Source: Halolamina pelagica (lineage in GTDB: Archaea > Halobacteriota > Halobacteria > Halobacteriales > Haloferacaceae). Taken from it: a stretch of 64,000 nucleotides of DNA. A program made the position numbers and the translations under genes. The stretch is taken from positions 62,001 to 126,000 of the forward strand of contig NZ_FOXI01000003.1 of assembly GCF_900115675.1 (NCBI RefSeq), written 5' to 3'. Shown piece after piece: positions 52,245 through 59,970 of the stretch. How positions within the stretch are numbered: the first letter of the stretch is position 1; every line of letters begins with the position of its first letter. The notes beneath the pieces are model-generated. The model saw only the letters and a list, made by a program, of their open reading frames with translations. It did not search any database and was not told the origin of the DNA.

Positions 52245-52329
52245 GCCGAGGTAGCCTAGCCTGGCCAAGGCGGTAGATTCGAAATCTACTGTCCTCACGG
52301 ACTCGAGGGTTCAAATCCCTCCCTCGGCG
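52245..52329 (+). tRNA. tRNA-Ser (anticodon CGA)
   Basis: This is an 85-base class II tRNA. The acceptor GCCGAGG pairs with CCTCGGC with discriminator G. The anticodon stem is GTAGA/TCTAC around TTCGAAA, so the anticodon is CGA. The long variable arm TGTCCTCACGGACTC is diagnostic for serine, and the T-arm is GAGGG/CCCTC with TTCAAAT. There is no intron and CCA is not encoded. Confidence 0.95.
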
Positions 52330-52417
52330 CTTCTGAAGTACAACGTCGACCAGCGCCGCGTTTGATCGCGGCGCGTCGTCGACCGTGCCGAACCGGAGCC
52401 GGGTCGAGGGATTTGAA
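52310..52417 (+). repeat. tRNA-Ser tail hairpin unit A
   Basis: TTCAAATCCCTC (52310-52321, inside the tRNA T-arm) has a perfect inverted copy at 52406-52417. Between them is a strong hairpin, GCGCCGCG (52353-52360) with CGCGGCGC (52367-52374), extended by GTCGAC at 52345-52350 and 52378-52383. Confidence 0.8.
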
Positions 52418-52449
52418 CGAGACCGGACGAGCGAAGCGAGTCCGGGCGT

Positions 52450-52560
52450 GGTTCAACATCCCTCCCTCGGCACTTCTCGAACTGTAAGCCGGCGAGCGCC
52501 GCGTCTCGTCGCAGCGCGACGCCGGCCCTGTCGACTCGAAGCCGTGCCGAGGGGTTTGAA
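52450..52560 (+). repeat. tRNA-Ser tail hairpin unit B
   Basis: The unit begins with a copy of the tRNA 3' end (ATCCCTCCCTCGG at 52458). CCCTCGGCAC (52464-52473) has a perfect inverted copy at 52544-52553, and GCCGGCG (52488-52494) pairs with CGCCGGC (52520-52526). Confidence 0.8.
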
Positions 52561-52598
52561 TCAGGGAGTGAAGCGAACGGAGAGAGCGGAACGACCGT

Positions 52599-52702
52599 GG
52601 TTCAACATCCCTCCCTCGACGCTTCTCGAACTGCGAGTTGGCGAGCGCCGCGTCTCGCCACGGCGATCGGTCGCCTGACCCGGCACGGCGGGGTTTGATA
52701 GT
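52599..52702 (+). repeat. tRNA-Ser tail hairpin unit C (degenerate)
   Basis: A third copy of the tRNA 3' end begins at 52607, 149 bases after the second. TGGCGAG (52639-52645) pairs with CTCGCCA (52654-52660). The outer arm has decayed to GGGGTTTGATAG. No gene lies in 52330-52723. Confidence 0.75.
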
Positions 52703-58032: not shown

Positions 58033-59970
58033 ATGGTCGGCCGAACCCTCCCGCTGACCGCGTTCGCCGCGGTGTTCGTCGTCGCCGTGGTGGTCCTGAG
58101 CGCCACGCTCGTCGTCCCCGTCGGCGCGACCGACGACGTCGAGCCCGTGCCGTTCGAGGACACGTTCACCCTCGGCCTCACCGACGAGACGGTTCGGCAG
58201 ACCGAAGCCCGAGGGTTCTCGATCCCCCGGGTGGAGGTGTACTACTCGGCCTACAAGTACGTGGTCGGCTTCAACAGCGTGGGCTCCTACGTCGCCGAGC
58301 AGGGCCGCACCGGCCACGAACAGCGCTTCGGCCAGCCCGTCGCGGCGTTCGTCTCGGACTACGCGGGCGCCAACGCCTCGCTCACCGAGGACGGGTACCT
58401 GACCGCCGACGGGGAGGTGGGCTTCGCCCCCGCCGAGGAGACCGTCGTCGTCGTCGACAGCCGCGCCCGGCTGCCGAGCGGTCCCGTCGCGGTCCCGTTC
58501 TCCGACCGCGACGCCGCGGCCGCGTTCGCCGACGCCTACGGCGGGGAGGTCGTCCCGTGGGAGGCGGTCACCGAGCGGGTCACGGCCCGCGATCCGGCCT
58601 CCGCGTCGGCGCTCCGGGGCGCGGTCGAGAACCGCTCGGCGTGGGCGAACCAGTCCGTCGCCGCGACGACCGACCGCGAGCGATCCACCTCGATCGTCGT
58701 CGGCGAGGACGCCGAGAGCCTCGACGCGGCCGTCGCGGCCGCCCCGCCGAACACGACTGTCGAACTCCCGCCGGGCACGTACCGTACGGACGGCCTGGTC
58801 GTGAACAAGTCGCTGACGATCGCCGGCGCCGGGAACGCGACGACGATCCGGGGCGACGGCAACGGGACCGTGCTCACGATCGCGGCGCCCCGAACCACCC
58901 TGCGGGACCTCCGGATCGACGGCGTCGGCGACGTGGGGAGCCGTCGCAGCATGCTCAACACCTCGGAGATCGAGGGGCTGAACTGGTCGAAGAACGTCGA
59001 GCTCGCCTACGGTCGGGGCGACGCCGCGGTCCGGCTGCTCGACGCCGAGCGCTCGCTCGTCGAGCACGTCTCGGTCGAGACGCCGGCCTCCGGCATCGTC
59101 ACGCTCGACAGCCGGGGCGCGGTGATCCGCGAGTCGGCGGTCGCGGTTTCCGGCGGCACCCAGGAGGGGTTCATGGGGCTGGTCGCGATGTACGAGCCGA
59201 TCGTCGTCGAACGGAGCCGGTTCGCCGGCGGCCGCGACGGGATCTACACCCACCGCGCCGACGGGATCGTCGTCCGGGACAACGAGTTCACCGACCACCG
59301 CTTCGGGATCCACGAGATGTACACCTCCGACTCGCTGCTGCGGAACAACACCGCCCGGGACTCGAACGCCGGCATCTTCCTGATGACGCGGCCCTCGGGC
59401 AACCTCCTCGTCGGCAACGACGTGCGTGACTCTCGCGTCGGCATCTCCACCGCGGGCTCGCGGTCGTACTTCGCGTCGAACGTCGTCGCCGACAACGGCC
59501 GGGGGTTCAACGTCTACAGCTCGCAGTCGCTGTACACCCACAACACCGTCGTCGGCAACGACGTGGGGCTCCGTGCCGGCGACGCGCTCGCGACCAACCT
59601 CCTGACCGCCAACGACATCGTCGGCAACGACCAGGCGGCGACGGCCAGCATCGGCCCGCTGCGCGTCTGGACCGTCGGCGACCGGGGCAACTACTGGGGG
59701 CCGGTCCCGGGCACCGACACCGACGCCGACGGCCACTACGAACGCGCGTTCCGGCCGACCGGCTCGGTCGACGCGCGCGTCCGGACGACCCCCGGCGCGT
59801 GGACGCTCGCGCGCTCGCCGGCGGTCGACCTCGTCCGGACGGTCCAGGAGACCGTCCCGGGCCTGCGTGCGACCGGCGTCGTCGACGTGGCGCCGCGGAC
59901 CACCCCTGCCCGCCCGGAGACGCTCGAAACGCTGCGCGAGCCGGGGAACACGACGGAGGTGGCGGGATGA
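58033..59970 (+). CDS. nosD: NosD beta-helix protein with N-terminal NosL-like domain
   Basis: This is a 645-residue exported protein. After a signal peptide (about 1-34), residues about 40-190 contain two segments resembling NosL (RVEVYYSAYKYVVGFNSVGS and VPFSDRDAAAAFADAYGGEV). From about 225 a right-handed parallel beta-helix of short repeats runs to about 570 (GIYTHRADGIVVRDNEFTDH, NNTARDSNAGIFLM). A longer N-terminal half than classical NosD explains the size. It starts two bases after nosL. Confidence 0.88.
   Translation: MVGRTLPLTAFAAVFVVAVVVLSATLVVPVGATDDVEPVPFEDTFTLGLTDETVRQTEARGFSIPRVEVYYSAYKYVVGFNSVGSYVAEQGRTGHEQRFGQPVAAFVSDYAGANASLTEDGYLTADGEVGFAPAEETVVVVDSRARLPSGPVAVPFSDRDAAAAFADAYGGEVVPWEAVTERVTARDPASASALRGAVENRSAWANQSVAATTDRERSTSIVVGEDAESLDAAVAAAPPNTTVELPPGTYRTDGLVVNKSLTIAGAGNATTIRGDGNGTVLTIAAPRTTLRDLRIDGVGDVGSRRSMLNTSEIEGLNWSKNVELAYGRGDAAVRLLDAERSLVEHVSVETPASGIVTLDSRGAVIRESAVAVSGGTQEGFMGLVAMYEPIVVERSRFAGGRDGIYTHRADGIVVRDNEFTDHRFGIHEMYTSDSLLRNNTARDSNAGIFLMTRPSGNLLVGNDVRDSRVGISTAGSRSYFASNVVADNGRGFNVYSSQSLYTHNTVVGNDVGLRAGDALATNLLTANDIVGNDQAATASIGPLRVWTVGDRGNYWGPVPGTDTDADGHYERAFRPTGSVDARVRTTPGAWTLARSPAVDLVRTVQETVPGLRATGVVDVAPRTTPARPETLETLREPGNTTEVAG

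Follow-up and report, generated by a model that had tools for sequence, protein, structure and literature searches.

The array of short hairpin units behind the tRNA-Ser(CGA) gene of Halolamina pelagica, found in a 64,000 nt stretch of contig NZ_FOXI01000003.1 (the window), is best explained as a member of a haloarchaeal family of small, gene-less cassettes that are anchored at tRNA 3' ends and may come and go through DNA recombination, perhaps in the form of folded single strands, a reading which we adopt tentatively. The family has a common structure and a set place and orientation at tRNA ends, each unit carries a local copy of the tRNA end while core hairpins are shared between loci, structure lies on the tRNA-sense strand, and whole units bounded by copies of the tRNA end have been gained or lost; the recombining enzyme and the mechanism acting on the strand we infer from these features.

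We refer to the tRNA's last 20 nt, which run from T-loop to discriminator, as F, to the inverted T-loop copy as R, and to the hairpins as h and c, so that the array 3' of the tRNA gene (52245–52329/30, plus strand; ARAGORN, and Rfam RF00005 with 59 bits) reads F1-h1-R1-c1-F2-h2-R2-c2-F3-h3(truncated). F1 (52310–52329, plus; read from the sequence as TTCAAATCCCTCCCTCGGCG) spans T-loop position 54 to discriminator 73 and is the block that is copied. It is followed by h1 (52330–52405, plus; from sequence and fold), a T-rich trailer and two-level hairpin with the inner stem GCGCCGCG..CGCGGCGC, of a type also present in other genera, then by the inverted T-loop/T-stem copy R1 (52406–52418, minus; repeat search) and the core hairpin c1 (52418–52451, plus; CGGAC-GA-GCGAAGC-GA-GTCCG, from sequence and core families). 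The second unit begins with the direct copy F2 (52452–52472, plus; repeat search), whose T-loop holds an extra C (TTCAACATCC), and continues with the trailer hairpin h2 (52473–52543, plus; sequence and fold), with R2 (about 52544–52560, minus), an inverted copy of the acceptor end and T-loop in which the middle 4–5 nt are gone when compared with the tRNA, and with c2 (52561–52600, plus), a family I core (TCAGGGAGTG...ACGACCGTGG) recognised by its recurrence: this genome has it again after tRNA-His, and other genera have it after other tRNAs. F3 (52601–52621, plus; repeat search) has the same extra C (TTCAACATCC) and leads into h3 (52622–52653, plus), a truncated hairpin joined to the final codons of a deleted PCNA-like gene (sequence and comparison with relatives). 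An earlier note on this DNA had described three tandem hairpin units, of which the third is a truncated remnant comprising F3 and a partial hairpin without R.

The direct and inverted copies of the tRNA 3' end reported in the earlier note are real, as the repeat search also finds three direct copies spaced 143 and 149 nt apart and a 13-bp inverted pair (52309–52321 / 52406–52418), and both exceed chance. The best direct match to F was 16/20, compared with no more than 14/20 in approximately 500 randomly drawn 400-bp pieces of the window; for inverted matches the longest was 13, compared with no more than 10 in such pieces. The stretch also folds better than 100 of 100 shuffles (z = -4.7). At its far border (52653–52680) the array is fused to the last codons of the PCNA-like gene (RRSVA stop), which is intact beside the same tRNA region in genomes G002 and G003 (L011, L012); since the only PCNA encoded elsewhere in the window's genome is 47% identical, this paralogue seems to have been deleted at the array border. 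We note that a second ARAGORN tRNA-Ser(CGA) call (58111–58192, minus) is probably false, lying inside a coding region and missing from the genome's Rfam tRNA list.

Like arrangements stand behind many other tRNA genes throughout the order, which bears out the suggestion of a tRNA-derived repeat family. Of the 41 tRNA genes in the window's genome, 13 are followed within 1 kb by a sequence that matches their own 3' end at 15/20 or better, compared with 1 of 41 upstream, and in the same genus the core is met again behind tRNA-Ser, His, Thr, Lys, Asp, Gly and Met. We searched genomes (one per species) with a generic R-c-F pattern, GGATTTGAA-N(20–50)-TTCAAATCC, using the reversed pattern as the control. 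It occurred in 212 of 293 genomes and 74 of 87 genera of the order, these counts being lower bounds as the arms had to match exactly and units with other T-loops were missed; the control gave none. An even draw of 197 genomes across the phylum yielded 26 positives, all 26 within the order, and a scan of named genomes gave, among the matches listed, haloarchaea including Halorubrum, Natrinema, Haloarcula and Halolamina. Among the genomes searched, the family is restricted to Halobacteria. A literature search of open-access papers found no description of a repeat family of tRNA-end hairpins, and the units look like a previously undescribed one. Viral origin was considered and rejected, as a scan of viral contigs for R-c-F turned up matches due to chance and a bacterial look-alike, and no haloviral copies. 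Near-perfect inverted repeats, GGATTTGAACCGTGGACCTCTGG...CCAGAGGTCCACGGTTCAAATCC and its relatives, occur in seven GC-rich, non-haloarchaeal viral contigs (L134, L146, L150, L165, L167, L194 and L205); one of them overlaps a predicted tRNA-Gln, and the type is perhaps an independent T-loop hairpin.

Over 363 loci, 242 cases were assigned to a tRNA, and 238 of these lie within 600 bp downstream of the 3' end, with two farther away and two upstream. Six loci had more than 1 kb of flanking sequence and no recognised tRNA: four (L024, L098, L405 and L412) adjoin a tyrosine integrase gene, the printed sequence of another (L428) shows a tRNA end that had gone unrecognised, and the last (L418) resembles a chance match in a low-GC gene.

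F is a copy of the local tRNA, with an identity of 0.917 to it compared with 0.435 to other tRNAs. In 215 units this identity was 0.90–0.96 at positions 63–72 and 0.85 at position 73, and fell to approximately 0.45 one or two bases beyond, ending at the mature 3' end. It includes positions 63–68, which R does not complement. Behind tRNA-Ser(CGA), where the T-stem varies among genera, 27 of 34 F copies match the variable core of their own species, compared with an average of 16% for other genera. F is therefore either a recent copy of the local tRNA end or one that keeps being renewed, and is not retained solely for pairing with R. A second type of copy was seen behind some Gly and Arg tRNAs (L034, L232 and L236), in which GGGAGTCCC or CTCCCGG replaces the T-loop before the local acceptor sequence, and the last F behind one tRNA-Arg(TCG) (L243) has a non-local acceptor end (CGACCGACGCA), possibly that of another tRNA.

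R and the complement of the acceptor end also match the local tRNA, and R and F pair at both ends with a mismatched middle. When the c core was searched for without the T-loop, tRNA-like T-loop arms were found to flank 28 of 30 loci, and these arms follow the local tRNA with both sides changing together (e.g. GGATTCGAA/TTCGAATCC and GGAATTGAA/TTCAATTCC); all nine of nine arm positions are paired in 85 of 124 cores. The core families themselves are common to different tRNAs and many genera. The claim in the earlier note that the stems vary and still pair was upheld when compensatory changes were counted against controls: in two core families 35 and 15 cells were altered on both sides, which none of 500 shuffles reached in either case and which exceeded both controls, these counts treating related sequences as independent.

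Whole units come and go. In the taxonomic family, a strict F copy lies within 600 bp downstream of tRNA-Ser(CGA) in 31 of 70 genomes and in none at the same distance upstream, and presence is patchy inside genera. At the locus in the window, a tRNA-proximal unit of 148 bp is present in G001 and G004 and missing from the window's genome, a difference which on a tree of seven species may be a gain or a loss; elsewhere a 135-bp unit is present in G173 and not in G493, a 146-bp whole-unit difference separates G486 from G206, and 123-bp steps separate G470 from G192. Upstream identity to G173 is 93% for G487, 78% for G479 and 69% for G493, and from this divergence one gain of the G173/G487 unit next to the tRNA is simpler than two losses. 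Across arrays the h and c modules are mixed, with F remaining local, and in the 20 arrays we read the units are about 90–150 bp long and gene-free. Gene-carrying cassettes were looked for in the same 20 arrays and none were found; a 1.1-kb gap at L230, considered as a gene cassette, is actually a duplicated tRNA-Asp gene.

The most serious rival to our reading is that these are old attachment scars, with past integrations having duplicated the tRNA end and the arrays since having been expanded, trimmed and homogenised by ordinary homologous recombination and gene conversion without a dedicated enzyme, and this we regard as rather unlikely. The 3' ends of tRNA genes are favourite docking sites of archaeal mobile elements. 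F shares the limits of the tRNA attachment block, near-identical tandem units occur (for example, seven of 111 bp behind tRNA-Gly), F follows species-specific changes in the tRNA as would be expected of gene conversion, and across genera the h types recur in a shared order-of-two pattern. Archaeal tyrosine integrases (SNJ2, pNOB8 and related enzymes) use attachment sites at tRNA 3' ends (reviewed in PMC8371274), and likewise the tRNA 3' end is directly repeated here up to the end of the gene and elements with tyrosine integrases use the same tRNAs. The units described here differ from such sites in being tandem and gene-free at 100–150 bp, with no genes or integrase between the repeats inside units in the 20 arrays read, and in having an inverted T-loop and hairpin which are absent from the element ends examined.

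The integrated elements themselves can be seen at displaced units. The four units adjoining integrase genes mentioned above, together with L072, stand without a tRNA beside a tyrosine integrase gene (Pfam PF00589), in some cases one from an element that had used the same tRNA end for integration, and a tblastn search with two haloarchaeal integrases as queries found genes at displaced units only. In the window's genome, a tRNA-Met unit lies approximately 38 kb from its tRNA, following an integrase gene and a tRNA-end copy. Integrated elements thus went in at F1 and displaced the older units. The tyrosine integrase of this ~38-kb element adjoins the right attachment site (L072, the genome's own contig C20:1–12000, and L066), and on reading, the element includes an ORF resembling a type I restriction-related protein. 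Four of the five elements we looked at have no R-like sequence in their final 300 bp, and the fifth has only a weak and distant one. As R-c is missing from the right ends of all five, the units are not simply leftover element ends, and element scars would account for F and not for R and c. The suggestion of nested integration scars in the earlier note therefore holds for the limits of F, which are those of the integrase attachment block whose ends integrated elements also use, and fails for R-c. The same c families behind different tRNAs in many genera, and the covariation of the stems, are likewise unexpected of plain scars.

A second rival would place the function in RNA, with read-through from the tRNA promoter producing sense-strand hairpins that act in termination, in 3' processing or in an alternative fold of the T-arm. 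We consider this unlikely, and an RNA role has less support than the readings based on DNA recombination. It would fit the placing of structure on the tRNA-sense strand of almost every unit, the T-runs after each F, and the compensatory changes. In 192–195 of 217 units the c hairpin of the tRNA-sense strand exceeds its complement in stability, an advantage which is partly due to purine-rich composition, yet the real difference is greater than in shuffles, and the motif GA-NN-GNA-NN-GA was found in 85 sense strands and no antisense strands (1.3 in shuffles). Against this, F2 copies positions 63–68, which R leaves unpaired; G-T is not favoured over A-C among mismatches (19 to 15 in arms and 39 to 68 in stems); triloops, mostly GNA, outnumber RNA tetraloops in the c loops; and a strict F copy within 600 bp is lacking at 39 of 70 tRNA-Ser(CGA) orthologs. 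Among the Rfam 15 covariance models, tRNA alone reached threshold and no other structured RNA family did. The idea in the earlier note of a device that traps the T-arm is not supported, on these grounds and on the patchy absence of units in related species. The GNA triloop is known as a very stable loop in DNA, and the bias to the sense strand, the GNA triloops and the lack of a G-T preference point to, without proving, a folded DNA strand rather than RNA; here the triloops favour DNA only on general grounds of hairpin stability.

A third possibility is a mobile repeat of the insertion type, in which a non-autonomous h-R-c would be inserted by a transposase or Cas1-like enzyme and the tRNA end would be a long target-site duplication. 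F duplicates the local sequence precisely and stops where the mature tRNA ends, which would be expected of a target duplication, and short mobile repeats that enter palindromes are known in haloarchaea (SMR-A, PMC3119063). SMR-A and the PATEs of Haloquadratum walsbyi are short mobile repeats of ~110 bp, hairpin-linked and without a transposase, whose means of mobilisation is unknown (PMC3119063), and our units resemble SMR-A in being haloarchaeal and hairpin-linked, of about that length (~110 bp) and without a transposase. In contrast, SMR-A has its own inverted terminal repeats, targets the palindromes of IS605-type elements and makes no target duplication (PMC3119063), whereas the units here target the tRNA 3' end and each is flanked by a copy of it. 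R and the acceptor-end complement are also local, which would not be expected of an inserted element, and no transposase is linked to the units, making this explanation improbable. Finally, chance local duplication, with which the earlier note would have left us had no similar arrangement stood behind other tRNA genes, is ruled out by its recurrence at many tRNAs across the order.

Returning to recombining cassettes as our preferred reading, one unit (~100–150 bp) consists of the trailer hairpin h, the inverted T-loop R, the core hairpin c and a new F (positions 54–73 of the host tRNA), and units would be gained and lost through recombination between F copies. The most likely agent would be site-specific recombination by the tyrosine integrases which already use these tRNA ends. 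The site may be the folded sense strand, with R paired with F and c at the tip, comparable to integron attC or the folded attP of CTX phage, and an exchange of c modules at the universal T-loop arms would leave the acceptor part of F local and the tRNA intact.

An attC site has a fixed orientation, an imperfect inverted repeat with an unpaired middle and a bulged base, a variable tip and strand-specific folding. By sequence and predicted fold the units described here are alike in their fixed orientation, outer and inner pairing, unpaired middle, bulged G, variable tip and sense-strand folding, the bulged G position lying outside the stem in two core alignments (A1 and A3). However, the arms here are tRNA sequence anchored at tRNA genes, and the 20 arrays read contain no gene cassettes. 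The consensus boxes of attC are GTTRRRY / RYYYAAC, and these were not found in the unit arms, (G)GTTCAAATCC and GGATTTGAA(C), in which the base after GTT is C. Missing consensus boxes and missing gene cassettes rule out an integron, and a paper on archaeal integrons (PMC9668308) mentions neither haloarchaea nor tRNA.

It should be noted that several observations weigh against our preferred reading. No recombinase is tied to the units themselves, neither circular nor single-stranded intermediates were seen, and no gene cassette turned up in any array. The identity of F could stem from gene conversion, just as unit gain and loss could stem from ordinary homologous recombination between F copies. 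R-c is missing from the right ends of integrated elements, and in several genera the h types alternate behind tRNA-Ser(CGA), which suggests old arrays eroded by deletion.

We consider it somewhat unlikely, and offer it as a conjecture, that Halobacteria have a new recombination system in which tRNA genes would anchor gene-less cassettes, the folded sense strand of DNA would be the site, the tRNA 3' end would be rebuilt in each event and hairpin modules would be exchanged among tRNA loci across the order. An order-wide family of units which carry copies of tRNA ends, whose hairpins are kept by compensatory change and which differ between close relatives, would record recombination at tRNA genes directly and would allow the idea of single-strand recombination sites to be tested in archaea. 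The family also explains some confusing features of haloarchaeal genomes, namely the tRNA fragments and spurious small reading frames found behind tRNA genes.
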